Shown: one piece after another, positions 757 to 64,000 of the stretch | How the letters are laid out: every line of letters starts with the position of its first letter | Numbering within the stretch: position 1 is the first letter of the stretch | The notes under the pieces: generated by a model | The model's database searches: none | Told to the model about the DNA's origin: nothing | Seen by the model: the letters and a program-made list of their open reading frames with translations, nothing else | Origin: Phycicoccus endophyticus | Lineage (GTDB): Bacteria > Actinomycetota > Actinomycetes > Actinomycetales > Dermatophilaceae | Direction: 5' to 3' | DNA: 64,000 bases | Assembly (NCBI RefSeq): GCF_011326735.1 | Contig: NZ_JAANCN010000001.1 | Coordinates: 434,001-498,000 of the forward strand | Position numbers and translations under genes: made by a program

Positions 757-1809
757 GTGCGGAGCACCCCGAGCTCGCCGGTGGGGCTGCACCGGGTCCT
801 CGACCCGAGGGGGGCGGCCCTGCCCCAGGCCGCGAGGCGGCTCGACGCCTCACCGCAGCTGTGGCCGGACGAGGTCCGCATCGACGTCGAGACGCTCAAC
901 CTCGACGCGGCCTCCTTCCGCCAGCTGTCCGAGAAGCACGCCGGTGACGGCGACGCGGTGCGCGAGGAGGTGCTCGCGATCGTCGCCGAGCGGGGGAAGA
1001 TGCAGAACCCGGTGACCGGGTCCGGGGGCATGCTCGTCGGCACGGTGGCCGAGGTGGGCCCGAGCTCACCCCTCGGGCTGCGCGTCGGCGACCGCGTGGC
1101 GACCCTCGTCTCGCTCTCGCTCACGCCTCTCGTCCTCACCGACGGGCTGCGTCGGTGGGACGGACGCTCGGAGCGGGTGCCGGCGACGGGCACCGCCGTC
1201 CTGTTCGGCCGCTCGATCGCGGCCCGGCTGCCCGAGGACCTGTCGGCCGACCTCGCCCTCATGGTCATGGACGTGTGCGGCGCCCCGGCGCTGGTGTCAC
1301 GGGTCGTGGGCGAGTACACCGAGCGGGGGAGGGCGCCCGTCGTGGCCGTGCTCGGGGCCGCCGGCAAGTCAGGGTCCCTCTCGCTGGCCGCTGCCCGCGA
1401 CGCCGGGGCCGGGCACCGGATCGGGGTGGTCCCGACCCGGGCAGAGGCCGATCTGCTGGCGGCGAGCGCCCTCGCCGACGAGGTCGTCGTCGCGGACGCC
1501 CGCTCACCCCTCGGTCTCTCGGAGGCGGTCGCGACCGCGGGTGGCCCGGCCGACGTCACGGTGGTGTGCGTCGACGTCCCGGGGTGCGAGCAGCCCGCGG
1601 TCCTCTCGACCGCTCAGGGGGGGACCGTGGTCTTCTTCTCGATGGCCACGAGCTTCGCGGCCGCCGCACTCGGGGCAGAAGGGCTGGCCGCGGACGTGCG
1701 GATGCTCGTCGGGAACGGCTACGTCCCGGGGCACGCCGAGCTCGCCGTCGACCTGGTGCGCCGCGACGACGCGGTTCGGGGTCTGTTCGAGGCGCGGCTC
1801 GCGGGCTGA
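757..1809 (+). CDS. kdd: L-erythro-3,5-diaminohexanoate dehydrogenase
   Basis: NAD-dependent oxidative deaminase of the lysine fermentation pathway, giving 5-amino-3-oxohexanoate. The GTG at 757 is chosen because AAGGAG lies 6 nt before it and the 350-residue product then begins at the family-like segment GLHRVLDPRGA.LPQAA. The longer open frame upstream only runs antisense through kamA. A Rossmann segment (VLGAAGKSGSL) starts near residue 196. It is transcribed divergently from kamA. The next enzyme, the cleavage enzyme Kce, is not in the window and may lie beyond the left edge. Confidence 0.87.
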   Translation: MRSTPSSPVGLHRVLDPRGAALPQAARRLDASPQLWPDEVRIDVETLNLDAASFRQLSEKHAGDGDAVREEVLAIVAERGKMQNPVTGSGGMLVGTVAEVGPSSPLGLRVGDRVATLVSLSLTPLVLTDGLRRWDGRSERVPATGTAVLFGRSIAARLPEDLSADLALMVMDVCGAPALVSRVVGEYTERGRAPVVAVLGAAGKSGSLSLAAARDAGAGHRIGVVPTRAEADLLAASALADEVVVADARSPLGLSEAVATAGGPADVTVVCVDVPGCEQPAVLSTAQGGTVVFFSMATSFAAAALGAEGLAADVRMLVGNGYVPGHAELAVDLVRRDDAVRGLFEARLAG

Positions 1810-1815
1810 GCCCGT

Positions 1816-2208
1816 TCAGGCGGGGGCGGTCTGCCGCACCGGCATCGCCACGAAGTGGTCGACGCGGGCGACGCCGAGGACGGTGCGCGCCAGCCCCGGC
1901 ATCCGGGCCATGCCCTCCTCGGTCGTGAGGTCGCGTGGGGCTGCGAGGGTGAGCCACTCGCCGTGCATGCGCACCCGGCAGCCCTGTGCGGCCCGGACGT
2001 TGCGCAGCCAGTCGACGTCCGGGCCGTAGGTGAGGGCGAAGGTCAGCTCGTCGCCGTGCCGGAAGGCGTTGACGGGGATCCGGTAGGTGCGCCCGGAGCG
2101 GCGCCCGACGTGCTCGAGCTCGACGAAGGGGCCGTGCCCGGCGAGGTGGATCATCCCCTTGTTGAGGACGGCCTTGTTGAAGCGGGTGACGGCGCGGGGG
2201 AAGGCCAT
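1816..2208 (-). CDS. Nitroreductase-family deazaflavin (F420)-dependent oxidoreductase
   Basis: A 130-residue single-domain protein of the small split-beta-barrel flavin/deazaflavin family (DDN-like). The segment HVGRRSGRTYRIPVNAF and the later GPDVDWLRNVRAA are typical of it. Such enzymes bind F420 or a related cofactor; the substrate cannot be told. Its stop is 6 bp from the kdd stop (convergent). Its ATG is 37 bp from the divergent amidohydrolase start, and each gene has its own -10 box in that gap. A role in lysine use is possible only by position. Confidence 0.75.
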   Translation of the reverse strand: MAFPRAVTRFNKAVLNKGMIHLAGHGPFVELEHVGRRSGRTYRIPVNAFRHGDELTFALTYGPDVDWLRNVRAAQGCRVRMHGEWLTLAAPRDLTTEEGMARMPGLARTVLGVARVDHFVAMPVRQTAPA

Positions 2209-2215
2209 GCCCCCG

Positions 2216-2221
2216 ACGGTA
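2216..2221 (-). promoter_or_regulatory. -10 box of the F420-type reductase, leaderless type
   Basis: TACCGT on the minus strand ends 7 nt before the ATG at 2208. Only 11 bp separate it from the divergent -10 box at 2233-2238, so the two promoters must overlap. Confidence 0.5.
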
Positions 2222-2232
2222 CGCCCGACGCC

Positions 2233-2238
2233 TAGAGT
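2233..2238 (+). promoter_or_regulatory. -10 box of the amidohydrolase, leaderless type
   Basis: TAGAGT, 7 nt before the GTG at 2246; no Shine-Dalgarno sequence fits between them. Confidence 0.55.
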
Positions 2239-2245
2239 GGCGGCC

Positions 2246-3799
2246 GTGCCGACGACCCTCTACCGCCGCGCGCGGGTGTGGAACGTCCAGGACGGGTCGG
2301 CCACGGCCCTGGTCGTCGGGGACGACGGCCGCATCGCCTGGCTCGGTGCGCAGGAGGAGGCCGACAGATACGTCGAGGCCGTCGACGCCGTCGTCGACCT
2401 CGAGGGCGCCCTCGTCCTGCCCGGTTTCGTCGACGCCCACGCACACGTCTCGCACACCGGGCTCGGCATGCGCGGGGTGGACCTTGCGGGAACCCGCACG
2501 GTGACCGAGGCCCTCGACCTCGTCGCGGCGGCCGCCCGGGCCACGCCCGCAGCCCCGGTGTTCGCCCACGGCTGGCAGGAGGAGGACTGGACCCGGGAGC
2601 GGGCGATGACCGCCGGCGAGCTGGACCGGGCGAGCGACGGAGGCATCGTCTACGCGTCCCGGATCGACGGCCACTCGGCCGTGGTCTCCTCGGCCCTCGC
2701 CGCCCGTGCGGGGGCGGACGCGCTCGACGGCTGGTCGGGCACCGGCTTCGTCGTGCGCGACGCGAAGAACGTCGCGTGGGCCGCCTTCGAGGCGGCTCGT
2801 TCCCGCAGCGAGCGGCGGGGGGACATCGAGGCCGCGCTGCGCGCCGCCGCCGGGATGGGCATCGTCGCCGTCCACGAGTGCGGGGGACCGCTGCTCACCT
2901 CCGCCGAGGACTTCGCGGACGTCCTCGACCTGGGCCGCCGACCGGGCCTGCCCTCGACCGTCGGGTACTGGGCGGAGCCGGTCACCGACGCCGAGCAGGC
3001 GCGCTCGCTCGCCACGGCGCACGGCGCGTTGGGGCTCGGCGGGGACCTCAACATCGACGGGTCGATCGGCTCGCACACCGCCCTGCTCCGTGAGCCGTAC
3101 CTCGACGACCCCACATGCCACGGCACGGCCTACCGGGACGTCGCGGCCGTACGCGACCACGTCGCCGCCTGCGCCGTCGCCGGCGTGCAGAGCGGGTTCC
3201 ACGTCATCGGCGACGCCGCTCTGGACCTCGTCCTCGAGGGCTACGTGCGGGCCGCGGAGCTCGTCGGTGCTGAGCGGCTGCGCGCCTCGCGGCCGCGCCT
3301 GGAGCACGCCGAGATGGTCGGGCCCGAGGGCATCGCGACGATGGCGCGACTCGGCATCGGGGCCAGCGTGCAGCCGGCGTTCGACGCCTACTGGGGTGGT
3401 CGCGAGGGCATGTACGCGGTGCGGCTGGGGCCCGAGCGGGGCGTCGCGACCAACCCGCTCGCCGGGTTCACCGGCGCGGGGGTGCGGCTGGCCTTCGGCG
3501 CCGACTCACCGGTGACGCCCTTCGGCCCGTGGGTGGCCGTCCGCGCCGCCGCCGAGCACCGGGACGAGGACCAGCGGCTCTCCGTGCGGGCCGCGGTACG
3601 TGCGCACACCGCCGGCGGGTGGGAGCTGGCGGGCCGGAGCGGGGGAGCGCTGCGGGTCGGCGAGCCGGCGACCTTCGCCGCGTGGTCGGTCGCCGACCTC
3701 GGGCCGGACGGCCTTCCCGTCCTCGGCGGGGGTGCACCGCTGCCCGAGTGCCTCCTCACCGTTGCCGACGGCGTCACCCTCGTCGACGCCCGCGGGTGA
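2246..3799 (+). CDS. Amidohydrolase family 3 (YtcJ-like) metal-dependent hydrolase
   Basis: A 517-residue member of the amidohydrolase superfamily, YtcJ/amidohydrolase-3 type. The N-terminal composite beta domain is followed by the metal motif VDAHAH near residue 68, then conserved histidines (GFHVIGDAALD, LEHAE) and the late FGADSPV segment carrying the expected aspartate. These enzymes hydrolyse amide or related C-N bonds in the cytosol; the substrate is unknown. The GTG at 2246 is set by the TAGAGT box just before it, while the frame further upstream is antisense to the reductase. It sits between kdd and kamD, so a link to amino-acid breakdown is possible but unproved. Confidence 0.82.
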   Translation: MPTTLYRRARVWNVQDGSATALVVGDDGRIAWLGAQEEADRYVEAVDAVVDLEGALVLPGFVDAHAHVSHTGLGMRGVDLAGTRTVTEALDLVAAAARATPAAPVFAHGWQEEDWTRERAMTAGELDRASDGGIVYASRIDGHSAVVSSALAARAGADALDGWSGTGFVVRDAKNVAWAAFEAARSRSERRGDIEAALRAAAGMGIVAVHECGGPLLTSAEDFADVLDLGRRPGLPSTVGYWAEPVTDAEQARSLATAHGALGLGGDLNIDGSIGSHTALLREPYLDDPTCHGTAYRDVAAVRDHVAACAVAGVQSGFHVIGDAALDLVLEGYVRAAELVGAERLRASRPRLEHAEMVGPEGIATMARLGIGASVQPAFDAYWGGREGMYAVRLGPERGVATNPLAGFTGAGVRLAFGADSPVTPFGPWVAVRAAAEHRDEDQRLSVRAAVRAHTAGGWELAGRSGGALRVGEPATFAAWSVADLGPDGLPVLGGGAPLPECLLTVADGVTLVDARG

Positions 3800-3907: not shown

Positions 3908-4507
3908 TCAGCAGCTTTGGTCCAACCACTCCGAGCGAAGCATCGCGTAGGTATACCCGTCGACCCAGCCCAGCTCCGCGTGCCACGAGTCCTCCACACC
4001 GTGCTGCTCGCGCCGCATCCCGACCTTCTCCATGACGCGCCACGACCCCACGTTGTCCGCGAAGCATCCGGCCGTCACGCGGTGCACCCGCAGCTCGCGG
4101 AAGGCGATGACGAGCAGCTCCGCGGCGATCGTGGCGCCGTACCCGCGGCCCCAATGCTCCGGCGAGACGTTCCACCCGAGGAGGGCCTCCGCCTTCCGAT
4201 GGCCCGAGCCGCGGTCCTGCCCCATGCCGTCCTTCACCTCGAGGTAGCCCATCGCCACCCGCTCGCCGCCGAGCAGGGCCACGAACGAGTGGTCGTCCGG
4301 GTCGAGCGGCCCGAGCAGCCGGGCACGCAGGTCGTCGGCGTCGACGTTGGTGCGCAGCAGCCATCGCGTGACCTCAGGGCGGTTGCGCCACGCGAGGATG
4401 GGGTCGACGTCGGCCGCGGTCGGCGGTCTGAGCACGAGTCCGCCCACGGCCCGAGGCCAGGAGACGGGGGAGGGAGTGCCGGGCGGGACGCCGGGGGAGT
4501 CGGTCAC
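3908..4507 (-). CDS. GNAT-family N-acetyltransferase (RimJ/RimL type)
   Basis: A 199-residue acetyltransferase. The GNAT fold spans about residues 28-190, with LRPPTAADVDPILAW at the start, the acetyl-CoA loop HWGRGYGATIAAELL, and the late DNVGSWRVMEKVGM, as in RimJ/RimL proteins. The acceptor is not known; protein N-termini and small amines are both possible. The GTG at 4507 gives the usual family length; an in-frame ATG at 4633 would add an unlikely basic leader. It opposes kamD. The DNA around its 3' end is somewhat less GC-rich than its neighbours, which could mean later acquisition. Confidence 0.78.
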   Translation of the reverse strand: MTDSPGVPPGTPSPVSWPRAVGGLVLRPPTAADVDPILAWRNRPEVTRWLLRTNVDADDLRARLLGPLDPDDHSFVALLGGERVAMGYLEVKDGMGQDRGSGHRKAEALLGWNVSPEHWGRGYGATIAAELLVIAFRELRVHRVTAGCFADNVGSWRVMEKVGMRREQHGVEDSWHAELGWVDGYTYAMLRSEWLDQSC

Positions 4508-4663: not shown

Positions 4664-6262
4664 GTGTCTCCACGTCAGCGCCCGGTCCTCGAGGTTGACC
4701 CAGCGGTCGTGCGACGTGCCCGCTCACTCGCACGCAGGGCCGGCCAGCCCGTCGTGGACCTCGCTCGGGCGCACACCACGGTCTCCGTTGAGCGGGCGAC
4801 GCTTCGTCTCGCCGGGCTCAAGGGCGCCGACCACGAGGGCACCCCCTGGGTCAACCACCTCGTCGACGCGGTCCGTGCACAGACCGGTCTCGAGCACGGC
4901 GTCACGACACCGGTCTGGGACGCCCTGCGTCGCGGGCAGGCCCCCGACCTGCTGACCCTGGCGCAGAAGGCGAGCAGTGGGGGAGTCTCCTTCCGGCTGC
5001 CCGAGGGCAGCGACCTGCGCGCCTCGCGGCGCGCGGCCCGGGTGGCGGTGGCCCGCGGGGTACGCACCATGGACCGCCAGCGGGCCGCCCGTGAGCGCAT
5101 GGTCGCCACGGTCGGCGACGCGCCGCGCACGCCGTGGGTCTACCTCATCGTCGCCACCGGCGACATCCACGAGGACATCCCGCAGGCCCGCGCGGCGGCC
5201 GAGGCGGGTGCCGACGTCATCGCCGTCATCCGCTCCACCGGGCAGAGCCTGCTCGACTTCGTCCCCGAGGGCGCCACCCGTGAGGGGTTCGCCGGCACGT
5301 ACGCGACCCAGGAGAACTTCCGCCTCATGCGGGCCGCCCTCGACGAGACGAGCCGTCGGCTCGGCCGGTACGTCCGGCTGACCAACTACGCGAGCGGGCT
5401 GTGCATGCCGGAGATCGCCACCCTCGCCGGGCTCGAGCGGCTCGACATGATGCTCAACGACTCGATGTACGGGATCCTCTTCCGCGACATCAACCCCGTG
5501 CGGACCTTCGTCGACCAGCGCTTCAGCCGTCAGGTGCACGCCCGCGCCGGCATCATCATCAACACCGGCGAGGACAACTACCTCACGACCGCCGACGCGG
5601 TCGAGGCGGCGCACACCGTCACCGTGAGCCAGCTGCTCAACGAGTACTTCGCCAAGGAGGCCGGGCTCGAGGACTGGCAGCTCGGCCTCGGGCACGCCTT
5701 CGAGATCGACCCCGACCTGCCGGACAGCTTCCGGACCGAGCTCGCGCACGCCCTGCTGGCCCGCAGGCTCTTCCCCCGTGCTCCGCTGAAGTGGATGCCG
5801 CCCACCAAGCACATGACCGGCGATGTCTTCCGTGGCTACCTCCTCGACGGGTTCTTCAACCTCGCCGGTGCGATGACCGGCCAGGGCATCCTCCTCGTCG
5901 GAATGATGACCGAGGCGGTCGTCACCCCATGGCTGTCCGACCGCGACCTCGCCCTCCAGAACGTCCGGTACGTCATGGAGGCCGCCGGCGGGCTCACCGA
6001 GGACTTCCACCCGCCGCGTGACGGGTTCATCCAGACCCGCGCCCGGCAGGTGCTCTCCGAGGCCGTCGACCTGCTCGAGGGCATCGTCCACGACAGCGAC
6101 GCCGCCGGGGACCCTCCGCTGCTCGCCGCCATCGCCGACGGCACCTTCGGCGCGATGAAGCGCCCCGCGACCGCGGGCAAGGGCCTCGACGGCGTCGTCG
6201 TCAAGGCCGGCGGGTACGACAACCCCGCGACGAGCCTGCTCGAGGAGGGGGCGACCCGATGA
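4664..6262 (+). CDS. kamD: D-lysine 5,6-aminomutase (beta-lysine 5,6-aminomutase) alpha subunit
   Basis: Large subunit (532 residues, close to the family's usual length of about 520) of the B12- and PLP-dependent aminomutase that moves the terminal amino group of beta-lysine to give 3,5-diaminohexanoate. Family features include TPWVNHLVDAVR near the N-terminus, the TIM-barrel core with VIRSTGQSLLDFVPEG, the segment GIIINTGEDNYLTT and the late KWMPPTKHMTGD. The stop overlaps the kamE start as ATGA, so the subunits are translationally coupled. The product feeds Kdd, and the substrate comes from KamA upstream. Confidence 0.95.
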   Translation: MSPRQRPVLEVDPAVVRRARSLARRAGQPVVDLARAHTTVSVERATLRLAGLKGADHEGTPWVNHLVDAVRAQTGLEHGVTTPVWDALRRGQAPDLLTLAQKASSGGVSFRLPEGSDLRASRRAARVAVARGVRTMDRQRAARERMVATVGDAPRTPWVYLIVATGDIHEDIPQARAAAEAGADVIAVIRSTGQSLLDFVPEGATREGFAGTYATQENFRLMRAALDETSRRLGRYVRLTNYASGLCMPEIATLAGLERLDMMLNDSMYGILFRDINPVRTFVDQRFSRQVHARAGIIINTGEDNYLTTADAVEAAHTVTVSQLLNEYFAKEAGLEDWQLGLGHAFEIDPDLPDSFRTELAHALLARRLFPRAPLKWMPPTKHMTGDVFRGYLLDGFFNLAGAMTGQGILLVGMMTEAVVTPWLSDRDLALQNVRYVMEAAGGLTEDFHPPRDGFIQTRARQVLSEAVDLLEGIVHDSDAAGDPPLLAAIADGTFGAMKRPATAGKGLDGVVVKAGGYDNPATSLLEEGATR

Positions 6263-7047: not shown

Positions 7048-7436
7048 CCACCGCCGAGGTCGGCCTGAGCGTCACCCACCGCCGCTACGTCCCCTTCAGC
7101 CACGCCCACTACGCCGGCAACCTCGTCGACGGCGCCTACGGCCTGGCGGCCTTCGGCGACGTCGCGACCGAGATGTGCATCCGCACCGACGGCGACGAGG
7201 GGCTGTTCGCCTCCTACTCCGAGGTCCAGTTCCTCGCGCCGGTGCGCGCCGGCGACCTGGTCGAGGTCGAGGCCCGCCTGGTGCGGGTGGGCACCCGCTC
7301 CCGCGAGATGGACTTCGAGCTGCGGGTCGTCGGCCGCGGCGTACCGGCGCGGGGGGAGTCGACGGCCGAGGTTCTCGACCCGCCGATCGTCGCGACGACC
7401 GCGCGCGGGGTCGTCGTCGTGCCTCCAGCCGGGTGA
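7044..7436 (+). CDS. kal: 3-aminobutyryl-CoA ammonia-lyase
   Basis: A 130-residue single hotdog-fold protein. In the lysine pathway it removes ammonia from L-3-aminobutyryl-CoA to give crotonyl-CoA. The N-terminal RRYVPFSHAHYAGNLVDGAY and the central FLAPVRAGDLVEVEARL match this hotdog subfamily. The ATGA overlap with kamE supports the pathway role strongly, because the fold alone would fit many thioesterases or hydratases. The CoA transferase that makes its substrate and the enzymes that use crotonyl-CoA are not in the window. Confidence 0.9.
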   Translation: MTTAEVGLSVTHRRYVPFSHAHYAGNLVDGAYGLAAFGDVATEMCIRTDGDEGLFASYSEVQFLAPVRAGDLVEVEARLVRVGTRSREMDFELRVVGRGVPARGESTAEVLDPPIVATTARGVVVVPPAG

Positions 7437-7450: not shown

Positions 7451-9013
7451 GTGCCCACCCCGCTCCGGCTGACCGCCGGCCCCCTCGCGGCCGTCCTCGC
7501 CGGACTGGCGCTCTGGCTCGCCTTCCCCGACCACGACCTGTGGTGGCTGGCCCCCGTGGGCGTCGCGCTGCTCGGCGCCGCGACCCTGGGCGCCGGAGCA
7601 CCGCGCGGCTTCCTCCTCGGCCTGCTCGCCGGCCTCGCGTACTTCGGCCCGACCCTGTCGTGGTCGGGGGTCTACGTCGGCAAGCTGCCCTGGTTCGCCC
7701 TGGCGACCCTCGAGGCGCTGTACGTCGCGGTGATGTCGGCGCTCGTCGGGTACGCCGGCCGCCGACTGCTCGCCTCCGGCCATCGCCCGGCAGCGCTGCT
7801 CCTCGTGCCGCTGGGCTGGGTGGCCCAGGAGTGGGCCCGCTCGACCACCCCCTACGGCGGCTTCCCCTGGGCCCGGCTCGCGTTCAGCCAGGCCGACAGC
7901 CCGCTGGCCCACGTGGCCCGGTGGCTCGGCGCCCCCGGGGTCACGTTCGCGACGGCGGTCGTCGGCGTCGGTCTGCTGGCCCTGTGCTGGGGGCTCGCCG
8001 CCCGCCGCCCGGCACGCCTGCTCGCCGGGGCGCTCGTGGCGGCGGCGCCGTTCGCCGCCGGGCTCATCCCGCTGCCGACCGACGGGCGGACCGCGTCCGT
8101 GGGCTTCGTCCAGGGCGACGTCCCGCAGGCCGGGCTCGAGTTCAACGCGCAGCGGCGCGCCGTCCTCGACAACCACGTCCGCGGGACCCTGGCCCTCGCC
8201 GAGCGGGCGCCCGACGACCTCACCCTCGTGGTCTGGCCCGAGAACGCCTCGGACATCGACCCCTTCCGCAACGCCGACGCCGACGCCGAGATCCGCGCCG
8301 CGCAGTCGACGCTCGGGGTGCCCCTGGTCGTCGGCGCGGTGCTGGCCGAGCCGCCGGGAGCGAGCTCGAACGTCTCGCTGTTCTACACCGGCGCGGGGGA
8401 GCCCGAGCGGTACACCAAGCTGCACCCGGTGCCGTTCGCCGAGTACATCCCCCACCGGGAGTTCTTCGCGCAGTTCACCTCGGCGGCCGACCTCGCCGGC
8501 AACTTCGTCGCCGGCGACACCGTCGGGGCGTTCGAGGTGCCTGCGAGCGGCGGCAGCTACACCGCGCTGCCGACGATCTGTTTCGAGGTCGCCTACGACG
8601 GGCTGATGCGCACGAGCGTCGAGGCCGCCGGCGACACCGACTCGCTGCTGCTCGTGCAGACGAACAACGCCACCTTCGGGTACACGGCGGAGTCCGAGCA
8701 GCAGTTCGCCATCTCCCGGATCCGGGCCATCGAGCACGGGCGCAGCGTCGTGCACGTCTCCACGGTCGGCGTGTCCGGGTTCGTCGCCCCCGACGGCACG
8801 GTGACCGGCGCCACCGGCCTGTTCACCGCCGCCCAGGGCCTCGGTGAGCCGGTGCTGCGCCACGAGCGCACCCCGGCCGACCGGCTCGGGAGCGCCCCCG
8901 TGGTCCTGGCCACGGCGCTCTTCGTCCTGCTCGTGCTGTCCGCGGCCCGGTCGGGGCGGCGGGCTAGGGTGACGGCAGACCCCGAGGCCCCCGAGGACCA
9001 GACCGTTGCCTGA
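7451..9013 (+). CDS. lnt: Apolipoprotein N-acyltransferase
   Basis: Membrane enzyme (520 residues) that adds the third acyl chain to lipoproteins. The first 210 residues hold about six membrane segments, then comes an extracytoplasmic nitrilase domain, then one C-terminal membrane segment. The expected triad is present: E264 in WPENASD, K323 in TKLHPVPF and C377 in ICFEVAY. It overlaps ppm1 by 8 nt. In mycobacteria the Lnt and Ppm1 activities are fused in one protein; here they are separate but coupled. The lipoprotein GluB in this window is one likely client. Confidence 0.93.
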   Translation: MPTPLRLTAGPLAAVLAGLALWLAFPDHDLWWLAPVGVALLGAATLGAGAPRGFLLGLLAGLAYFGPTLSWSGVYVGKLPWFALATLEALYVAVMSALVGYAGRRLLASGHRPAALLLVPLGWVAQEWARSTTPYGGFPWARLAFSQADSPLAHVARWLGAPGVTFATAVVGVGLLALCWGLAARRPARLLAGALVAAAPFAAGLIPLPTDGRTASVGFVQGDVPQAGLEFNAQRRAVLDNHVRGTLALAERAPDDLTLVVWPENASDIDPFRNADADAEIRAAQSTLGVPLVVGAVLAEPPGASSNVSLFYTGAGEPERYTKLHPVPFAEYIPHREFFAQFTSAADLAGNFVAGDTVGAFEVPASGGSYTALPTICFEVAYDGLMRTSVEAAGDTDSLLLVQTNNATFGYTAESEQQFAISRIRAIEHGRSVVHVSTVGVSGFVAPDGTVTGATGLFTAAQGLGEPVLRHERTPADRLGSAPVVLATALFVLLVLSAARSGRRARVTADPEAPEDQTVA

Positions 9014-9785: not shown

Positions 9786-10288
9786 GCCCGGGACGTGCCG
9801 TGCCCACCTCCGGCCGCAGCCGTCGGGGGAGCATCCTGCGCTGGGTCTTCCTCGCCCTCCTCGTCGTCCCGCTGATCGAGGTCGCCGTCATCGTCGCGGT
9901 CGGGCGCACCATCGGGGGGTGGCCGACCTTCCTCCTGCTGCTGCTCGAGTCCCTGCTCGGTGCCTGGATCGTCCGGCGTGAGGGCGGACGGGCCTGGGCG
10001 GCGCTCCGGGACGCCCTGCGGACCGGCCGGATGCCGAGCCGCGAGCTCGCCGACGCCGCGCTCGTCCTCGTCGGTGGCACCCTGCTGCTCACCCCGGGGT
10101 TCGTCACCGACGTCGCCGGCTTCCTCGTCGTCCTGCCGCTCACCCGTCCGGTGACCCGGCGCTGGCTCGAGGCGGCCGTCGCCCGGCGCCTGCTCGGCCC
10201 GTTCGGCAGCTGGCCCGGCGGACCCGCCGGCGGGGGAGCGGGGGGCGAGGGCCCGCCCGACGTCATCCAGGGCGAGGTGGTCGACTAG
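9782..10288 (+). CDS. fxsA: FxsA family membrane protein
   Basis: A 168-residue FxsA-family (YtzA-type) membrane protein. Two or three hydrophobic segments (about residues 20-60 and 98-125) flank the family signature LLLLLESLLGAWIVRREG; the C-terminus is rich in glycine and proline. In E. coli, FxsA changes sensitivity of F-plasmid cells to phage T7; its general role is unclear. The GTG overlaps the ppm1 stop as GTGA; a second GTG a few codons on is possible. It completes the lnt-ppm1-fxsA unit, which ends in a strong hairpin. Confidence 0.85.
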   Translation: MSPGRAVPTSGRSRRGSILRWVFLALLVVPLIEVAVIVAVGRTIGGWPTFLLLLLESLLGAWIVRREGGRAWAALRDALRTGRMPSRELADAALVLVGGTLLLTPGFVTDVAGFLVVLPLTRPVTRRWLEAAVARRLLGPFGSWPGGPAGGGAGGEGPPDVIQGEVVD

Positions 10289-10848: not shown

Positions 10849-10905
10849 CCGACGTGTGCGGGGGAGTGGCCGGCCGCCCCGGCCCGCCCGGGGTCCCCGG
10901 GTCGA

Positions 10906-10918: not shown

Positions 10919-12277
10919 GTGAGCATGCCACCCGCCGCCGCGGCCGACGACCTCACCGGCCCCTCCGCGCTCGACCTCGCCCCGCCGACCCGCCCGCGCC
11001 GTGTCCTCGCCTGGGGGATGTGGGACTGGGGCACCCAGCCCTTCAACACGGTGATCACGACCTTCGTCTTCTCGGTCTACCTCACGAGCTCCTCCTTCGG
11101 GAGCACGAACACGACGTCGACGGCACTGTCGGTCTCGACGGCGCTCGCCGGGCTGTTCGTCGCCCTGCTCGCCCCGGTCCTCGGGCAGAACTCCGACCGC
11201 TCGGGGCGCACCGTCCACCACCTGCGCGTCCAGACCTGGCTGCTCGCCCTGCTCTCCGCGGCCCTGTTCGTCGTCCGGCCCGAGCCGGGGTTCCTCTGGG
11301 TCGGGCTCGGGCTGCTCGCGGCCGGGTCGGTGGTCTCGGAGATCGCCGGGGTCAACTACAACTCCACCATCGACCAGGTCGCCACCCCGAGGACGGTCGG
11401 GCGGGTCTCGGGCTTCGGCTGGGGGATGGGCTACCTCGGCGGGATCATCGTCCTGCTGCTGATCTACTTTGCCTTCATCCAGCCCGAGGTGGGCCTCTTC
11501 GGCGTCACCGATGCCGACGGGCTCGACATCCGGGTCTCGATGGTGGTCTGCGGGGTGTGGACTCTGCTGTTCACCGTCCCCGCCTTCCTCGTCCTGAAGG
11601 ACCGGCCGACCGAGCGCGGCCCCCGGGTCGGGGTGGTGCAGTCCTACCGGCTCGTGTGGCGCTCGGTCACCGGCCTGTGGGCGCTCTCGCGGCACACGGT
11701 CTTCTTCCTCCTGGCCTCGGCGCTCTTCCGCGACGGGCTGGCCGGCGTCTTCGCCTTCGGAGCGGTGCTCGCCGCGGGCACCTTCGGGCTCTCCGCGGGG
11801 GAGGTCATCATCTTCGGCGCCGCCGCGAACATCGTCGCCGGCCTCGCGACGATGGGCTTCGGCCTGCTCGACGACCGGATCGGGCCCAAGCGGGTCATCC
11901 TCGTCTCGCTCGGGGCCCTCGTCGTCCTCGGGCTGCTCGTCTTCGTCCTCCACGACGGCGGCGCGGCGGTGTTCTGGCCCCTCGGCCTGCTCATGACGGT
12001 CTTCGTCGGGCCGGCCCAGGCGGCCTCGCGCAGCTTCCTCGCCCGGCTCGTCCCCGAGGGTCGCGGCGGCGAGATCTTCGGCCTCTACGCCACAACCGGG
12101 CGGGTGGTCTCGTTCCTCTCACCGACCGCCTTCGGCCTGTTCATCGCGCTGGGGGCGCTGCTCACCGGGGCGGACAACACGCAGTACTGGGGCATCCTCG
12201 GCATCGTCCTCGTCCTCGCCGCGGGGTTCGCGGTGATGCTTCCGGTCAAGGAGCACGGGGAGCACACCGTCGCCTAG
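10919..12277 (+). CDS. MFS transporter, UMF1/Atg22-like
   Basis: A 452-residue integral membrane protein with about twelve hydrophobic segments. The start of the fold (LAWGMWDWGTQPFNTVI), the segment EIAGVNYNSTIDQVATP and GFGWGMGYLGG are hallmarks of the UMF1 (Atg22-like) branch of the major facilitator superfamily. In fungi Atg22 exports amino acids from the vacuole; bacterial substrates are mostly unknown. It is divergent from rbpA and converges on the M15 peptidase gene with only 17 bp between stops. Confidence 0.83.
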   Translation: MSMPPAAAADDLTGPSALDLAPPTRPRRVLAWGMWDWGTQPFNTVITTFVFSVYLTSSSFGSTNTTSTALSVSTALAGLFVALLAPVLGQNSDRSGRTVHHLRVQTWLLALLSAALFVVRPEPGFLWVGLGLLAAGSVVSEIAGVNYNSTIDQVATPRTVGRVSGFGWGMGYLGGIIVLLLIYFAFIQPEVGLFGVTDADGLDIRVSMVVCGVWTLLFTVPAFLVLKDRPTERGPRVGVVQSYRLVWRSVTGLWALSRHTVFFLLASALFRDGLAGVFAFGAVLAAGTFGLSAGEVIIFGAAANIVAGLATMGFGLLDDRIGPKRVILVSLGALVVLGLLVFVLHDGGAAVFWPLGLLMTVFVGPAQAASRSFLARLVPEGRGGEIFGLYATTGRVVSFLSPTAFGLFIALGALLTGADNTQYWGILGIVLVLAAGFAVMLPVKEHGEHTVA

Positions 12278-14034: not shown

Positions 14035-14352
14035 ATGGCCGAGACCGACGAGAACACCGTCCGCCTCGTGGGGCGGGTGACCTCGCTCGACCCGCCACGC
14101 GAGCTGCCGAGCGGCGACGTCGTGCACACCCTGCGGGTGACCGTCGGGCGGCCGCGCGGGCATCCGGGCGTCGACACCGTCGACGTCGCGTGCTGGTCGG
14201 CAGCCACCCGACGCTGCGCCGGGCGGCTGCAGGTCGGCGCCCGGGTCGAGGTCGAGGGCAGCCTGCGCCGGAGGTTCTGGCGGACCGGTGGCGGGCCGGT
14301 GAGCAGGTACGAGGTGCAGGCCCGACGCCTGCGGAGGGTGACTGCGGCGTAA
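14035..14352 (+). CDS. Short single-stranded DNA-binding (OB-fold) protein
   Basis: A 105-residue protein consisting of one Ssb-type OB fold (NTVRLVGRVTSLDPPRELPSG at the start, ARVEVEGSLRRRFW later) with no acidic C-terminal tail, unlike replicative Ssb. It resembles the small accessory Ssb-like proteins of actinobacteria. The ATG at 14035 has AAGGGGG 7 nt before it. The stop TAA shares its last two bases with the dif-like site, so the gene abuts the putative terminus. Whether it acts in DNA uptake, recombination or elsewhere cannot be told. Confidence 0.78.
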   Translation: MAETDENTVRLVGRVTSLDPPRELPSGDVVHTLRVTVGRPRGHPGVDTVDVACWSAATRRCAGRLQVGARVEVEGSLRRRFWRTGGGPVSRYEVQARRLRRVTAA

Positions 14353-19866: not shown

Positions 19867-19923
19867 TCCCCCATCCTTCCATCCCCGCCACCGACGAGGA
19901 CGGACACCCCCCGGGGTGTCGGG

Positions 19924-25675: not shown

Positions 25676-28552
<2,877 letters not shown>

Positions 28553-28599
28553 GGAGGGCCTCCAGGGGCAGACGGCAGGGTCGTCCTCCCCCTCTGTCG

Positions 28600-51295: not shown

Positions 51296-52657
51296 GTGTC
51301 TGAGGACCAGCCCGCCCCCCGCCCGCCCGTGCCCTCCCCCGCCGCACTCGCGCGGCGGGTCGCTCCGCGTCCCCCGGCCGCGGCGCCGGCGCCGGCCGAG
51401 CACTCGGAGTCCGCCCGCTTCGGGCGGGTCGACGACGAGGGCCGGGTCTTCGTGAGCGTCGACGGCGGCGAGCAGGAGGTCGGCTCCTACCCCGGCGCCA
51501 CGCCCGAGGAGGCCCTGCAGTACTTCGCCCGCAAGTACGACGAGCTCGCGGCCTCGGCGGAGCTGCTGCAGGCCCGCCTCGGCAACCCCGAGGTCACGGC
51601 CAAGGAGGTCTCCGACGCCCTGGCCACCCTCAAGGAGCACCTGGCACAGGCCAACGTCGTCGGTGACCTGCCGGCACTGCACGCCACGGTCGAGCGCGTC
51701 GAGGCCGGGCTGGAGGCCAAGCGCGGTGCCGAGACCGAGCAGCGCCGGGCGGCCCGGGCGCTCGCCGCGACCGAGCGCGAGCAGATCGTCGCCGAGGCCG
51801 AGGCGATCGCCGCCCAGCCGCCGGGCAGCACCCAGTGGAAGCAGTCGGGCGAGCGGATGCGGGCCCTGCTGGATCGCTGGAAGGAGCACCAGCGTGGCGC
51901 CGCCAAGCTCGACAAGCCGACCGAGGCCGCGCTGTGGCAGCGCTTCAGCCACGCGCGCAACGCCTTCGACAAGGCCCGCCGGGCGTGGTTCGCCGAGCTC
52001 GAGACGACCCGCGAGCAGGCCCGCTCGGCCAAGGAGGCCCTGGTCGCCGAGGCCGAGGCGCTCGCCTCGAGCACCGACTGGGGGGCCACCGCACGCGCCT
52101 ACAAGCAGCTCATGGACCGCTGGCGCCGGGCGGGGCGGGCCGCGCGGGCCGAGGACGACGCCCTCTGGGAGCGTTTCCGCTCCGCTCAGGACGCCTTCTT
52201 CACCGCCAAGGACAGCGCGGCTGCCGCCGAGGACGAGGAGTACCGGGGCAACCTCGTGGTCAAGGAGGAGCTGCTCCTCGAGGCCGAGGCGATCCTGCCG
52301 GTCACCGACGTCGAGGCCGCCAAGTCCGCCCTGCGGGGGGTCCAGGAGCGCTGGGAGGCGGCCGGCAAGGTGCCCCGCGGCGACCTGGACCGGGTGGAGA
52401 AGCGGCTGCGCCGGGTCGAGGCCGCCGTCCGCGAGGCCGACGAGCGCAAGTGGCGCGCGACCAACCCCGAGCTGTCCGCGCGGGCCCAGAGCATGGTCGA
52501 GCAGCTCGAGGCCGCGGTCGCCAAGGCACAGGCCGAGGTGGACCAGGCGCAGGCCGCCGGGGACGAGCGCACGGCCGACGCGGCCCGTGAGCGGCTCGCG
52601 GCCCAGCAGCAGTGGCTCTCCCAGGCACGAGCCGGGGTCGACGAGTTCGGCGGCTGA
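51296..52657 (+). CDS. DUF349 coiled-coil protein
   Basis: A 453-residue protein almost wholly helical. Residues 1-45 are Pro/Ala-rich; from about 55 there are repeated DUF349 helical units (WKQSGERMRALLDRWKEHQRG, WGATARAYKQLMDRWRRAGRA, AKSALRGVQERWEAAGKV), each with the conserved tryptophans. No enzyme motif is seen. The GTG follows the cyclophilin stop by 2 bp and GGAGAAG lies upstream. DUF349 genes often sit near relA, as here, where relA is convergent, but the function is not established. Confidence 0.87.
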   Translation: MSEDQPAPRPPVPSPAALARRVAPRPPAAAPAPAEHSESARFGRVDDEGRVFVSVDGGEQEVGSYPGATPEEALQYFARKYDELAASAELLQARLGNPEVTAKEVSDALATLKEHLAQANVVGDLPALHATVERVEAGLEAKRGAETEQRRAARALAATEREQIVAEAEAIAAQPPGSTQWKQSGERMRALLDRWKEHQRGAAKLDKPTEAALWQRFSHARNAFDKARRAWFAELETTREQARSAKEALVAEAEALASSTDWGATARAYKQLMDRWRRAGRAARAEDDALWERFRSAQDAFFTAKDSAAAAEDEEYRGNLVVKEELLLEAEAILPVTDVEAAKSALRGVQERWEAAGKVPRGDLDRVEKRLRRVEAAVREADERKWRATNPELSARAQSMVEQLEAAVAKAQAEVDQAQAAGDERTADAARERLAAQQQWLSQARAGVDEFGG

Positions 52658-52690: not shown

Positions 52691-55021
52691 TCAGCCCTCG
52701 CGGCGCCCGCCGGTGACCCGGGCCGCGTCGAGGACGCCGTCGACCTTCTGCACCGAGCGGATGACGTGCCCGAGATGGCCGGGGTCACCCATCTCGAAGG
52801 TGAACCGGAGCACGGCCACCCGGTCGCGGGAGGTCTGCACCGACGCGGAGAGGATGTTCACCCCGTTGTCGGAGATGACGCGGGTGACGTCGGAGAGCAG
52901 CCGCGAGCGGTCGAGTGCCTCGACCTGGAGCTGGACGAGGAAGAGGCTGCTCGCCGTGGGCGCCCACTCGACCTCGATGATCTTGTCCGGCTGGGCGAGC
53001 AGGGAGTCGGCGTTCGTGCAGTCCCGACGGTGCACCGACACCCCGTTGCCCCGGGTGACGAACCCGAGGATCTCGTCGCCCGGCACCGGAGTGCAGCAGC
53101 GGGCGAGCTTGACCCACACGTCGCTCATCCCCTTGACGACGACGCCCGGGTCCCCCGAGCGGCGCGGTCGCGGATGGTCGGGGACGGGCGTGGCGACCTC
53201 GGCGAGGTCCTCGCTGGCCCCTTCCTCGCCGCCGACCGACGCCACGAGCCGGGAGACGACGTGCTGGGCCGAGACGTGCCCCTCCCCGACCGCGGCGTAC
53301 AGGGCGTCGATGCCGGGGTAGCGCAGCTCCTCGGCCACCCCGGTGAGCGACTCGACCGAGGTGAGCCGCTGCAGGGGCAGCCCCTGCTTGCGCATCGCCT
53401 TGGCGAGGGCCTCCTTGCCCTCCTCGATCATCTCCTCGCGGCGTTCCTTGGTGAACCAGTGCTTGATCTTGTTGCGGGCGCGCGCCGAGCGCACGAAGCC
53501 CAGCCAGTCGCGTGAGGGCCCCGCCGAGTCGGCCTTGGAGGTGAGCACCTCGACGACGTCGCCGTTGTCCAGGCGCGACTCCAGCGGCACGAGCCGGCCG
53601 TTGACCCGGGCCCCGATGCAGTGGTGCCCGACCTCGGTGTGGACCGCGTAGGCGAAGTCGACGGGGGTGGCCCCGGCGGGGAGGCCGACGAGCTGTCCCT
53701 TGGGCGTGAAGACGTACACCTCGCTCGCGGTGATCTCGAAGCGCAGCGACTCGAGGAACTCCCCCGGGTCGGCCGTCTCCTTCTGCCAGTCGAGCAGCTG
53801 GCGCAGCCACACCATGTCGCCCGCGGGCTCGGTCTGCCCGTCGCGTACCTGGGCACCGGGGGTCTGGGCACCCCGGGCGGCCGGGTCCTCCTTGTACTTC
53901 CAGTGCGCGGCGACGCCGTACTCGGCGCGGCGGTGCATCGTGTGCGTCCGGATCTGGATCTCGACCGCCTTGCCGCCCGGGCCGATGACCGTCGTGTGCA
54001 GCGACTGGTACATGTTGAACTTCGGCATCGCGATGTAGTCCTTGAACCGGCCGGGCACCGGGTTCCACCGCGCGTGCAGCGCGCCGAGGGCCGCGTAGCA
54101 GTCACGGACGGTGTCGACGAGCACCCGGACCGCGACGAGGTCGTAGATCTGGTCGAAGTCGCGACCCCCGACGATCATCTTCTGGTAGACGGAGTAGTAG
54201 TGCTTGGGTCGGCCGGTGACGGTCGCCTTGATCTTCGCCGCCCGCAGGTCGGCCCCGACCTCGTCGCGGACCTGGGCGAGGTACTCCTCGCGCGCCGGTG
54301 CGCGCTCCGCGACGAGCCGGACGATCTCGTCGTAGACCTTGGGGTAGAGGGTCTGGAAGGAAAGGTCCTCCAGCTCCCACTTGATGGTGTTCATCCCGAG
54401 CCGGTGGGCCAGCGGAGCGTAGATCTCCAGGGTCTCCTTGGCCTTGCGCTGCGCGCTCTCCTGCGAGACGTAGCGCCAGGTGCGGGCGTTGTGCAGCCGG
54501 TCGGCGAGCTTGATGACGAGGACGCGGATGTCCTTGGCCATCGCCACGACCATCTTGCGCACCGTCTCGGCCTGCGCGGCCTGGCCGTAGGTGACCTTGT
54601 CGAGCTTGGTGACGCCGTCGACGAGCATCGCGATCTCGTCACCGAAGTCGCGCCGGAGCGCCTCGAGGCTGTAGGCGGTGTCCTCGACGGTGTCGTGCAG
54701 CAGCGCGGCAGCGAGCGTCGTCGGGGTCATACCGAGCTCGGCGAGGATGGTGGTCACCGCGAGCGGGTGGGTGATGTAGTCGTCGCCGCTGCGGCGCTTC
54801 TGGCCCTCGTGGGCCCGCTCGGCGACGGCGTAGGCGCGCTCGACGACGGCCACGTCGGCCTTGGGGTGGGTGCTGTGCACGATCTGCAGCAGCGGCTCGA
54901 GGACCGGGTTGCGCGGGGGGCGGGTGCGACCGACGCGCGCCAGCGCGGCGCGCGCCCGGGCGCGCGACCCCACCCCGGGTGGGGCGCTGCCCGAGGTGGC
55001 GGTGGTCGTGTGATCCGCCAT
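52691..55021 (-). CDS. rel: Bifunctional (p)ppGpp synthetase/hydrolase Rel
   Basis: A 776-residue long RelA/SpoT homologue. In order: the HD hydrolase domain (LLHDTVEDT near residue 113, so the hydrolase is active), the synthetase domain ([26 protein letters not shown]), TGS ([14 protein letters not shown]), the zinc-finger/helical region and a C-terminal ACT domain. The first 50 residues are a variable extension. A TAGACT box 6 nt before the ATG marks a leaderless start. It is followed downstream in the reverse unit by apt upstream, as in M. tuberculosis Rv2583c-Rv2584c. Confidence 0.96.
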
Positions 55022-55027
55022 GGAGGA

Positions 55028-55033: not shown

Positions 55034-55041
55034 GTCGCGGC

Positions 55042-55572
55042 TCACGGGACGACGTGCAGCGAGCGCACGGGCCGCTCCCCCAGCCGCCGGCGCCCGTCGA
55101 GGAAGCCCAGCTCGACGACGCAGTCGAACCCGACGACGCTCCCCCCGACCCGTTCGAGCAGCTCCCAGGCGGCCAGCGCCGTCCCCCCGGTGGCCAGCAC
55201 GTCGTCGACGAGGACGACCCGCCGGCCCGGCCCGAGCGCGTCGGCGTGCACCTCGATCGTCGCCGACCCGTACTCGAGGTCGTAGGAGGCCGCGACGGTG
55301 TCGCCGGGCAGCTTGCCCGCCTTGCGCACCGGGACGAAGCCCACGCCGAGGGCGTGCGCGAGGGCCGCCCCGACGACGAACCCACGGGCCTCGACACCGG
55401 CGACGAGGTCGACCTGCCCCCGGCGCCCGTCGGCCAGGGCGGCCACCACGGCGGCGAACGCGCCCGGGTCGCCGAGCAGCGGGGTGATGTCCTTGAACAC
55501 CACGCCGGGCTGCGGGAAGTCGGGCACGTCGCGCAGCGAGCGCGCGACGAGCTCGGAGACCCCGACGTCCAT
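55042..55572 (-). CDS. apt: Adenine phosphoribosyltransferase
   Basis: A 176-residue type I phosphoribosyltransferase that salvages adenine to AMP. The PRPP loop VVLVDDVLATGGTA lies near residue 118; VFKDITPLLGDPGAF and VEARGFVVGAALA are typical of Apt. The ATG at 55572 lies 2 bp from the secF stop, so apt is likely the last gene of yajC-secD-secF-apt. Confidence 0.95.
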   Translation of the reverse strand: MDVGVSELVARSLRDVPDFPQPGVVFKDITPLLGDPGAFAAVVAALADGRRGQVDLVAGVEARGFVVGAALAHALGVGFVPVRKAGKLPGDTVAASYDLEYGSATIEVHADALGPGRRVVLVDDVLATGGTALAAWELLERVGGSVVGFDCVVELGFLDGRRRLGERPVRSLHVVP

Positions 55573-55574
55573 GC

Positions 55575-58495: not shown

Positions 58496-58496
58496 G

Positions 58497-58775
58497 TCAG
58501 GAGCCCTCGCCGACGCGCATGCCGATGGCCCGGCGGTCGAACCGCAGGCTCACCCCGTTGCCGACGTCGAGGGTGGCGACCGTGTCGTCGAGGGCGGTGA
58601 CCGTGCCGTAGAGCCCGGAGGTGGTGACGACCTCCTCCCCCACCTGCAGGGAGGACTGCAGCTGCTGGACCTGCTTCCCGCGCTGGCGCTGGGTGAAGAA
58701 CATCCAGACGAGCAGGAGGAACGGCAGTCCCAGGATGAGCAGGTAGGCGAGGCCGGAGCCGGAGCCGTCAGACAT
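58497..58775 (-). CDS. yajC: Preprotein translocase subunit YajC
   Basis: A 92-residue single-pass membrane protein. The membrane segment is about residues 9-27 (LAYLLILGLPFLLLVWMFF), followed by the YajC domain (GEEVVTTSGLYGTVTALDD). It is the first gene of yajC-secD-secF-apt. The space to ruvB is 147 bp. Confidence 0.93.
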   Translation of the reverse strand: MSDGSGSGLAYLLILGLPFLLLVWMFFTQRQRGKQVQQLQSSLQVGEEVVTTSGLYGTVTALDDTVATLDVGNGVSLRFDRRAIGMRVGEGS

Positions 58776-60646: not shown

Positions 60647-61155
60647 CGGCTGCCCCCCTCGGCGAGGACGGCCAGGCGGGCGCTCGCCGCACCGCGCCAG
60701 GCGTGGCAGATGGCCAGGGCGAGGGCGTCGGCGGCGTCGGCGGGCTTCGGGGCGGCGTCGAGGCCGAGGATGCGGGTGACCATCGCTGCGACCTGGGCCT
60801 TGTCGGCCCGGCCGCTGCCGGTGACCGCCGCCTTGACCTCGGTCGGGGTGTGGAAGACGGCCGGGATGCCCCGGCGCGCGGCGCCGAGCAGGGCGACGGC
60901 GCTGGCGTGCGCCGTCGTCATCACGCTCGCCACGTTGACGTCGGCGAAGACCCGCTCGACGGCGACGACCTCTGGCGCGAACCGGTCGAGCCACTGGTCG
61001 AGCTCGCGCTCGAGGTAGAGCAGCCGCTCCCCCGGCTCGGCGCCGCTCGGCGTGCGCACCACGCCGACGGCGACCATCGCCGCTCGCCCGGGCCGGCCGT
61101 CGACCACGCCGAGGCCGCAGCGGGTCAGGCCGGGGTCGACACCGAGGACGCGCAC
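60643..61155 (-). CDS. ruvC: Crossover junction endodeoxyribonuclease RuvC
   Basis: A 170-residue Holliday-junction resolvase. The first catalytic aspartate is in [11 protein letters not shown] at residue 7, E in [11 protein letters not shown] and the last aspartates in [12 protein letters not shown]. The GTG at 61155 is chosen because AGGAG lies 6 nt before it; the longer frame would pass through the SOS box. First gene of ruvC-ruvA-ruvB. Confidence 0.97.
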
Positions 61156-62202: not shown

Positions 62203-62819
62203 GAACGCTCCCTCAGACTCTCTCTCACGATGTCGGCGAACAGCCGGTGCACCCGGTGGTCTCCGGTCACCTCGGGGTGGAAGGACGTGACCAGCAGGTT
62301 CCGCTGCCGCGCGGCGACGATCCTACCCGTGGCCGGCCCGTGCTCGACCCGCGCCAGGACCTCGACCGTCGGCCCGGCCTCCTCGACCCACGGAGCCCGG
62401 ATGAAGACCGCACGCACCGGCTCGCCCCCGAGCTCGCGGATGTGGAGGTCCTCCTCGAAGGAGTCCAGCTGGCGCCCGAAGGCGTTGCGGCGCACGAGGA
62501 TGTCCATCCCCCCGAGGGTCTGCTGGCCGGGGGCGCCGTCCGCGAGGCGGTCGGCGAGCATGATCATCCCGGCGCACGAACCGTAGACCGGCAGGCCGGC
62601 CGCGATCCGCTCGCGCAGGGGCTGCTGGAGCTCGAAGACCCGCACGAGCTTGTCCATGGTCGTCGACTCGCCACCGGGGACGACGAGACCGTCGACGGCC
62701 TCGAGCTCGCTCCTACGGCGCACGGTGGTCGCCCTCGCCCCGCCGCGCTCGAGTGCCTGGAGGTGCTCGCGCACGTCGCCCTGGACGGCGAGGACTCCGA
62801 TGGTCGCGGTGGTGGTCAC
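62199..62819 (-). CDS. pdxT: Pyridoxal 5'-phosphate synthase glutaminase subunit PdxT
   Basis: A 206-residue class I glutaminase that supplies ammonia to PdxS for PLP synthesis. Signature segments are PGGESTTM near residue 48, the nucleophile Cys in GSCAGMI, and the His-Glu of SFHPEVT at the end. The GTG at 62819 follows a TAGAGT box by 8 nt. PdxS is not in the window. PLP serves GcvP, KamA, KamDE, PatB and KynU, all encoded here. Confidence 0.95.
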
Positions 62820-62827
62820 GCCCGCCG

Positions 62828-62833
62828 ACTCTA
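62828..62833 (-). promoter_or_regulatory. -10 box of pdxT-yebC, leaderless type
   Basis: TAGAGT on the minus strand ends 8 nt before the pdxT GTG. Confidence 0.45.
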
Positions 62834-62924
62834 CGGCGTGCCGGGGGGTGGGCCAGATGCCGCGCCCCGCCTGTGCACCCGCTCGGTCGAGCCGGCGCTC
62901 GCTCGACCGCCCCCGCCCGCGCGC

Positions 62925-62930
62925 TACCGT
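62925..62930 (+). promoter_or_regulatory. -10 box of kynU, leaderless type
   Basis: TACCGT, 7 nt before the ATG at 62938. Confidence 0.55.
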
Positions 62931-62937
62931 CGCCACC

Positions 62938-64000
62938 ATGACCTCCGCGCTGACCGAACGGGCCCGCGCGCTCGACGCCGAGCACGCCGCCACCGACCTG
63001 CGCGGCCGCTTCCGCCTGCCTGCCGAGGTGGTCTACCTCGACGGCAACTCCCTCGGCGCCCTACCCGTCGGGGTCGCCGAGGCGGTCTCGGACGTCGTGC
63101 AGCGCCAGTGGGGCAGCAGGCTGGTCGCCAGCTGGAACGAGTCGGACTGGTGGGGTGCCCCCACCCGCGTCGGGGACCGGGTCGGCGCGCTGGTCGGCGC
63201 GGACGAGGGCCAGGTCGTGTGCACGGACTCGACGACGGTCAACCTCTACAAGTGCGTCGTCGCGGCGGCGCGGATGCGGCCGGGGCGGCGGGTCGTCCTC
63301 ACCGACCCCGGGTCCTTCCCCACCGACCTCTATGTCACCGAGGCGGCCGCGCGCGACCACGGGCTGACCGTCGAGCGGGTCGCGCCGCCGCAGGCCCCGG
63401 CCCGGATCGCCGAGCTCGGCGACGACCTCGTCCTCGCCGCGTACAGCTCGGTCGACTACCGCACCGGCGAGCTGTGGGACCTGCCTGCCGTCACGAGCGC
63501 CGCCCACGCGGTGGGCGCCCTCGTGTGCTGGGACCTGTGCCACTCGGCCGGGGTGCTCGACGTCGCGCTCGACGCCCATGGGGTCGACCTCGCGGTCGGC
63601 TGCGGCTACAAGTACCTCAACGGTGGGCCCGGAGCGCCCGCCTTCCTCTACGTCGCCCGGCGCCACCAGGAGGCCTTCGACCAGCCGCTCGCGGGATGGA
63701 ACGGCCACGCGCGGCCGTTCGCGATGGCCCCCGACTACGCCCCGGCGCCGGGGGTGGCGCGCGGTCGGGTGGGCACTCCCCCGATGCTGTCGATGCTGGC
63801 GCTCGAGGCGGCGCTGCGCACGTACGACGCGGTGACGGTCGCCGATCTGCGCGCCCGGTCGGTCTCGCTCACCGGGTTCTTCCTCGAGTGCCTCGACGCG
63901 CTCCTTCCCGAGGTCGAGGTCGCGACGCCGCGCGAGCCCGGCCGCCGCGGTTCTCAGGTCAGCCTGCGTCACCCGGCGGCGTACGAGGTCGTCCAGGCGC
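62938..64000 (+). CDS. kynU: Kynureninase, N-terminal 354 residues (cut by window edge)
   Basis: Fold-type I PLP enzyme that cleaves kynurenine to anthranilate and alanine. Visible are [13 protein letters not shown] near residue 31, [31 protein letters not shown] with the PLP-contacting aspartate, and the PLP lysine in [16 protein letters not shown] near residue 225. Roughly 60 residues are missing beyond the right edge. It is divergent from pdxT, which helps make its cofactor. Other tryptophan-degradation genes may follow outside the window. Confidence 0.92.

Follow-up and report, generated by a model that had tools for sequence, protein, structure and literature searches.

What does the heptamer GGGGGAG do on a chromosome where it changes strand at the terminus? 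The question arises from a 64,000-nucleotide stretch of the Phycicoccus endophyticus genome (the window, G000:C12:434001-498000; source genome of 3.18 Mb in 21 contigs, 74% G+C). There the original prediction had placed GGGGGAG on opposite strands on either side of a dif-like site and read it as a candidate FtsK-orienting polar sequence (KOPS) or architecture imparting sequence (AIMS). We find its copies on the leading strand, oriented from the origin toward dif on both chromosome arms, and we consider it likely, by analogy with known systems and from the conserved gamma domain of FtsK, that GGGGGAG is the actinobacterial counterpart of KOPS and guides FtsK.

Polarity of GGGGGAG around dif

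The dif site of the window was located by alignment with the published Frankia alni dif sequence, and its 21-bp core CCGATAATCCACATTATGTCA (14355-14375) is the sole match across the genome. It falls between the last plus-strand and the first minus-strand copy of the heptamer. Every one of the 41 copies obeys the switch: 12 stand on the plus strand to the left of dif and 29 on the minus strand to the right, with no exceptions. All 12 left-arm coordinates given by the original prediction are present on the plus strand with none on the minus strand, and the 11 it named on the right are all on the minus strand with none on the plus strand, the right-arm total being 29 where it had estimated about 30. 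The features are as follows.

1325..1331, plus strand, GGGGGAG, left arm
3641..3647, plus strand, GGGGGAG, left arm
4466..4472, plus strand, GGGGGAG, left arm
4493..4499, plus strand, GGGGGAG, left arm
4979..4985, plus strand, GGGGGAG, left arm
7352..7358, plus strand, GGGGGAG, left arm
8395..8401, plus strand, GGGGGAG, left arm
9825..9831, plus strand, GGGGGAG, left arm
10232..10238, plus strand, GGGGGAG, left arm
10860..10866, plus strand, GGGGGAG, left arm
11797..11803, plus strand, GGGGGAG, left arm
13402..13408, plus strand, GGGGGAG, left arm, last before dif
14351..14378, plus strand, dif site (28 bp) and polarity switch point, core match, 23 of 28 bases as in F. alni dif (by eye)
14955..14961, minus strand, GGGGGAG, right arm, first after dif
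15159..15165, minus strand, GGGGGAG, right arm
17920..17926, minus strand, GGGGGAG, right arm
18131..18137, minus strand, GGGGGAG, right arm
18310..18316, minus strand, GGGGGAG, right arm
18756..18762, minus strand, GGGGGAG, right arm
19486..19492, minus strand, GGGGGAG, right arm
19566..19572, minus strand, GGGGGAG, right arm
19866..19872, minus strand, GGGGGAG, right arm
20884..20890, minus strand, GGGGGAG, right arm
22945..22951, minus strand, GGGGGAG, right arm, antisense in sbcC-like gene
23129..23135, minus strand, GGGGGAG, right arm, antisense in sbcC-like gene
24253..24259, minus strand, GGGGGAG, right arm, antisense in sbcC-like gene
27761..27767, minus strand, GGGGGAG, right arm
28586..28592, minus strand, GGGGGAG, right arm
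29723..29729, minus strand, GGGGGAG, right arm
30160..30166, minus strand, GGGGGAG, right arm
34470..34476, minus strand, GGGGGAG, right arm, antisense in aminotransferase gene
34913..34919, minus strand, GGGGGAG, right arm, antisense in aminotransferase gene
42006..42012, minus strand, GGGGGAG, right arm
42012..42018, minus strand, GGGGGAG, right arm
51221..51227, minus strand, GGGGGAG, right arm, antisense in cyclophilin gene
51334..51340, minus strand, GGGGGAG, right arm
53759..53765, minus strand, GGGGGAG, right arm
55075..55081, minus strand, GGGGGAG, right arm
55139..55145, minus strand, GGGGGAG, right arm
58635..58641, minus strand, GGGGGAG, right arm
61027..61033, minus strand, GGGGGAG, right arm
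63776..63782, minus strand, GGGGGAG, right arm

Chance does not account for this arrangement, given a two-sided fair-coin p of about 9e-13 and the fact that GGGGGAG is the only exception-free heptamer among the 875 with at least 20 copies in the window. Its abundance barely exceeds that of dinucleotide-shuffled DNA (mean 31.8, sd 5.4; 41 or more in 6 of 100 shuffles), so what marks the window is polarity and not copy number. The G/C skew of the window shows no switch matching the change at dif.

The polarity also extends over 444.6 kb of the same contig. In what follows, counts written x:y give copies pointing toward and away from dif, with the leading strand inferred from position relative to dif. 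GGGGGAG reaches 189:9 and ranks first in polarity among 1840 heptamers in a scan made without prior choice, while CGGGGGAG (111:2) tops 2897 octamers. The words ranked next in the 5- to 8-mer lists, CTTCCTC among them, have a share of about 0.7 and seem to reflect gene-strand bias. A second-order model predicts 62 copies of the heptamer on the leading strand, where 189 are observed, and 46 on the lagging strand, where 9 are observed, so the word is enriched on the former and depleted on the latter.

Copy density also rises toward the terminus, from 0.38-0.45/kb in more distant parts of the contig to 1.15/kb at less than 10 kb from dif. In 40 other genomes of the class the density is 0.65/kb within 5 kb of dif against 0.37/kb at 10-20 kb (p 2.5e-10; 30 genomes rise, 6 fall), so the terminus enrichment for which the original prediction proposed a check is present. 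Within the genome, the dif contig holds 198 copies in 444.6 kb (0.45/kb, 95% toward dif), compared with 114 in 400 kb of other contigs (0.29/kb, at most 83% by majority), a comparison made on a partial sample of the genome, in unordered contigs.

The core word and its reach across genomes

In the contig of origin any one-base change lowers the share pointing toward dif from 0.95 to 0.75 or less, as in GGGGGCG (182:124) and GGGGGTG (101:95), and the variant AGGGGAG, at just 12:4, is weak there. Bases outside the heptamer hardly matter, except for a G at position -1 (15:4).

For a wider sample, dif matches were collected from 44 of 59 genomes searched in the same order (own included, hence 43 others) and from 53 of 78 genomes in the search of other orders, of which five were own or same order and 48 remain. 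Twenty genomes per group were picked before counting, for family spread and length of contigs, and at most 20 kb was taken on either side of dif; three sets with one short flank and another with an 11.9 kb flank were retained. In these 40 genomes GGGGGAG stands at 702:16. It is the top word in both groups, first of 3223 heptamers in the same order (373:7) and first of 3334 in the other orders (329:9). Among the 39 genomes with flanks of at least 5 kb on both sides, dif lies inside the best switch interval in 38 (median width 2.5 kb), which bears out the predicted orientation of both arms toward the dif-like site.

The pool also refines the word itself. An A at position 1 is tolerated (AGGGGAG 151:11, 0.93), every other substitution falls to 0.75 or less, and flanking bases keep the share at 0.93 or more save for G at -1 (34:8). 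The core thus measures seven bases and tolerates almost no change, the one exception being the A at position 1 across the class-wide pool. Near dif in two low-G+C genomes outside the class (L196-L197 and L200-L201, G+C 0.40), AGGGGAG is the commoner of the two words, at 9:1 and 9:1 against 5:0 and 6:0 for GGGGGAG.

Fifty named dif loci gave 219:8, again the top word (of 3534), with three loci lacking a copy. Outside the class the sum was 106:15 over 10 sets, one of them without a copy, taken from 22 dif matches in 80 genomes with two mismatches allowed. Polarity outside the class is therefore less pronounced, and the sites used there may include some that are not genuine dif.

For whole genomes we used the rarer word TGGGGGAGT, which was listed in full. 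In three one-contig relatives, counted by hand with contig ends taken as arm ends, it reached 56:4 (G031), 43:2 (G077) and 16:3 (G001), or 115 of 124 toward dif. Neither of the outcomes that the original prediction had set against itself, an absence of genome-wide strand skew or a switch lying elsewhere, occurred.

Single copies are not kept in place. Only 2 of 16 aligned window copies are identical in named relatives, in the range of the controls (9 of 125 for G-rich heptamers; 0.139 for 7-mers containing six G or C bases). This absence of conservation beyond background favours scattered, position-free selection, and does not by itself support function. Individual positions turn over and the polarity is kept.

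Probable FtsK steering and the alternatives

How might such a word act? The gamma domain of septal FtsK would bind the heptamer in one orientation, and this oriented binding would load the motor facing dif. The motor would then pump each arm toward dif, bringing it to XerCD for dimer resolution, and copies that load it in the wrong direction would be removed by selection, whose effect would be greatest close to dif. The protein side is consistent with this scheme. FtsK of P. endophyticus carries alpha, motor and gamma domains, and the gamma domain is present in 40 of 40 genomes. The gamma domain of P. endophyticus matches the solved gamma domains 2j5o and 2ve8 (E 7e-7) and also 2j5p. The structure 2ve9 is reported to be a complex with KOPS DNA. 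From the 40 genomes 30 gamma loci were cut and 29 could be read, one being missed by the pattern; the recognition helix QRKLRVGFAKAGRL is found in 27 of these 29 and the other two differ by one residue. A second, short open reading frame (ORF; 285 aa) with an FtsK gamma domain lies beside the full FtsK in one genome (G007).

The helix reads GYNRAARIIE in E. coli and GFAKAGRLMD here, so that the N and A of GYNRAAR become A and G in GFAKAGR. In the part of PMC2680272 consulted, R1300, E1303 and E1306 of E. coli FtsK are described as serving KOPS reading; the residues aligned with them here are R, D and E. Judging from these alignments, a related helix may read a related word.

Several observations weigh against FtsK steering of the KOPS type. 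The bias is weaker in other contigs of the genome (20 stretches, majority to minority sum 95:19, one empty and one tied), and no switch appears around dnaA in a 20 kb stretch with 7 copies, 6 of them on the minus strand and 2 beyond dnaA. In one genome (G120, 13:4) the switch interval starts 25 bp past dif, and at one named locus (L211, 0:4) all copies point away from the dif core. The E. coli word GGGNAGGG (GGG.AGGG) is hardly polar in the contig (73:41) and reaches 216:148 in the 40-genome pool, where GGGCAGGG stands at 84:92; such polarity as GGGNAGGG has in the pool comes from GGGGAGGG (99:22). Finally, as described below, a chromosome with no dif match is polar as well, which makes the polarity independent of dif. 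The L211 contig, binned as Deltaproteobacteria (G+C 0.51), carries an exact 21-bp actinobacterial dif core at 3606-3626, and may be mis-binned or hold a mobile dif.

Two other functions deserve consideration, both of them improbable in our judgement. The heptamer could be a Chi-like sequence regulating end resection by RecBCD or AdnAB, since sites of that kind share its G-richness and its bias to the leading strand; in the accessible text of PMC5993296, E. coli chi is a simple strand-biased sequence of the same strand polarity, and GGGGGAG is polar even on the chromosome without a dif match. A recombination hotspot, however, has no reason to become about 1.7-fold denser toward dif within 20 kb, and chi itself shows no such rise in the text of that paper. 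E. coli Chi, GCTGGTGG, is not polar here (12:15), which says little about another organism. To much the same small degree, the word could be a polar signal for another protein of the terminus or of replication, such as a fork or nucleoid factor, in place of FtsK. The polarity without a dif match on a likely linear chromosome would suit such a protein, and the same text (PMC5993296) states that most AIMS have no known function, but both the density rise and the strand switch centre on dif, the place that FtsK must reach.

A by-product of strand-asymmetric mutation or of leading-strand G-richness is very improbable. Some G-rich words are indeed mildly leading-biased here (GCGGGGG 185:84, GAGGGGG 89:42), but the near-balanced GGGGGTG and the modest bias of GGGGGCG in the contig speak against it, and in the pool the control GGGGGYG favours the direction away from dif at distances of 5 to 20 kb. 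Moreover, polarity is equally strong in genomes whose G/C skew is opposite (G087, skew -0.16, 20:1; G120; G081). The one-base variants and the opposite-skew genomes together reject general G-richness.

Codon or gene-strand bias (GGG GAG, Gly-Glu) can be dismissed as refuted: sense copies toward dif do fall most often in the frame nnG GGG AG (236 of 343), so coding shapes where copies fit, but with crude gene calls in 41 genomes polarity is nearly equal in genes directed toward dif (343:2) and away from it (184:3), and it persists outside called genes (216:11). The original prediction, which had argued against codon use from genes of either orientation, is upheld here in its conclusion and in most of its examples. 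Of the 33 window copies that a crude gene caller puts inside genes, 11 are antisense. They include the copy at 13402 in the minus-strand VanY carboxypeptidase gene, those at 22945, 23129 and 24253 in the plus-strand SbcC-like gene, and those at 34470 and 34913 in the plus-strand aminotransferase gene. The example of a DUF349 gene did not stand, as the plus-strand ORF holding the copy at 51221 (50397-51293) encodes a cyclophilin and no Pfam family was assigned to the ORF at 54979-55770.

Known motifs and chromosomes without dif

The word has a history in the same class of bacteria. In the accessible parts of PMC2830990, PMC3164646 (Corynebacterium ulcerans) and PMC3219685 (C. variabile), (T/C)GGGGGAG and G(A/T/C)GGGGGA are Corynebacterium AIMS that were used to find dif, and AIMS are credited to Hendrickson and Lawrence 2006. 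For C. aurimucosum, 856 leading and 61 lagging AIMS are given in the excerpts available, and the heptamer also appears in PMC3350403 and PMC3022926. The Corynebacterium form (T/C)GGGGGAG stands at 146:2 in our contig. The published octamers overlapping the core give TGGGGGAG 35:0, CGGGGGAG as above, GCGGGGGA 58:4, GTGGGGGA 20:2 and GAGGGGGA 25:10. Sequence, leading-strand bias and usefulness for finding dif are thus shared, whereas the present organism belongs to another order, the core measured here has seven bases, extensions hardly matter apart from G at -1, and AGGGGAG is co-polar in the pool.

With E. coli KOPS the heptamer shares leading-strand polarity toward dif, an increase toward dif and a switch at dif, together with an FtsK gamma domain bearing a related recognition helix. 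It differs in having G at the N of KOPS and an extra 5' G or A, and in not needing the last two G. Lactococcus KOPS is GAAGAAG. It is likewise a clade-specific heptamer replacing GGGNAGGG, but its sequence is unrelated and it is not polar here (46:50); the source text consulted describes the Lactococcus motif as an atypical A-rich heptamer. In their accessible portions, mycobacterial and corynebacterial FtsK papers (PMC13277299, PMC11898615) treat KOPS in general, with no actinobacterial motif. No experimentally defined actinobacterial KOPS was found in the literature searched, most subscription journals being outside its coverage.

The heptamer is to be classed as an AIMS. It is very likely the FtsK guide of the class and would work like KOPS, but it is not a KOPS of the E. 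coli type. The published strand-bias threshold for AIMS is at least 70% on the leading strand, compared with 189 of 198 on the contig; the switch at dif and the greater density and bias near the terminus agree with the AIMS reading of the original prediction. As a sequence the motif had been published before as an AIMS of actinobacteria, and it is here reported in a new organism. New are the sharp 7-bp core, the class-wide A variant at position 1, the class-wide reach and the rise at dif, as well as the finding that copies point outward on a chromosome that is probably linear and has no dif match.

That chromosome comes from a genus (g51, 7.1 to 9.9 Mb) in which none of seven genomes gave a dif match. 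One of them, G072, is a single 9.2 Mb contig with dnaA at 4.50 Mb and is probably a linear Streptomyces chromosome, judging from its size, the central dnaA and the species number. All 67 copies of TGGGGGAGT were listed; 60 point from dnaA to the contig ends and 7 the opposite way. This would fit FtsK pumping the arms endward, and fits other leading-strand functions too. We put forward as a tentative proposal, possible though short of our favoured expectation, that the class reads (G/A)GGGGAG through the clade-specific gamma helix GFAKAGRLMD, that the same word orients FtsK outward on linear, Streptomyces-like chromosomes without dif, and that arm pumping is selected apart from dimer resolution by XerCD. 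The outward polarity raises the question of whether FtsK steering is selected even where dif is missing.

If GGGGGAG is an FtsK guide, it would be of use in very G+C-rich draft genomes, in which G/C skew fails (the window is an example), for locating dif and both replichore arms and for flagging inversions and misassemblies. It would also offer a defined ligand for actinobacterial FtsK.

Beside dif in the window, an SSB-like OB-fold gene (PF00436, 13948-14352) ends on the first two bases of the site. It was considered as a part of the system and rejected, a homologue lying near dif in just 2 of 40 flank sets (within 0.4 kb in G017 and about 4.5 kb away in G034). Among the 50 named dif loci, those closest to window positions 5001-30000 by blastn belong to Phycicoccus, Ornithinibacter and Tetrasphaera.

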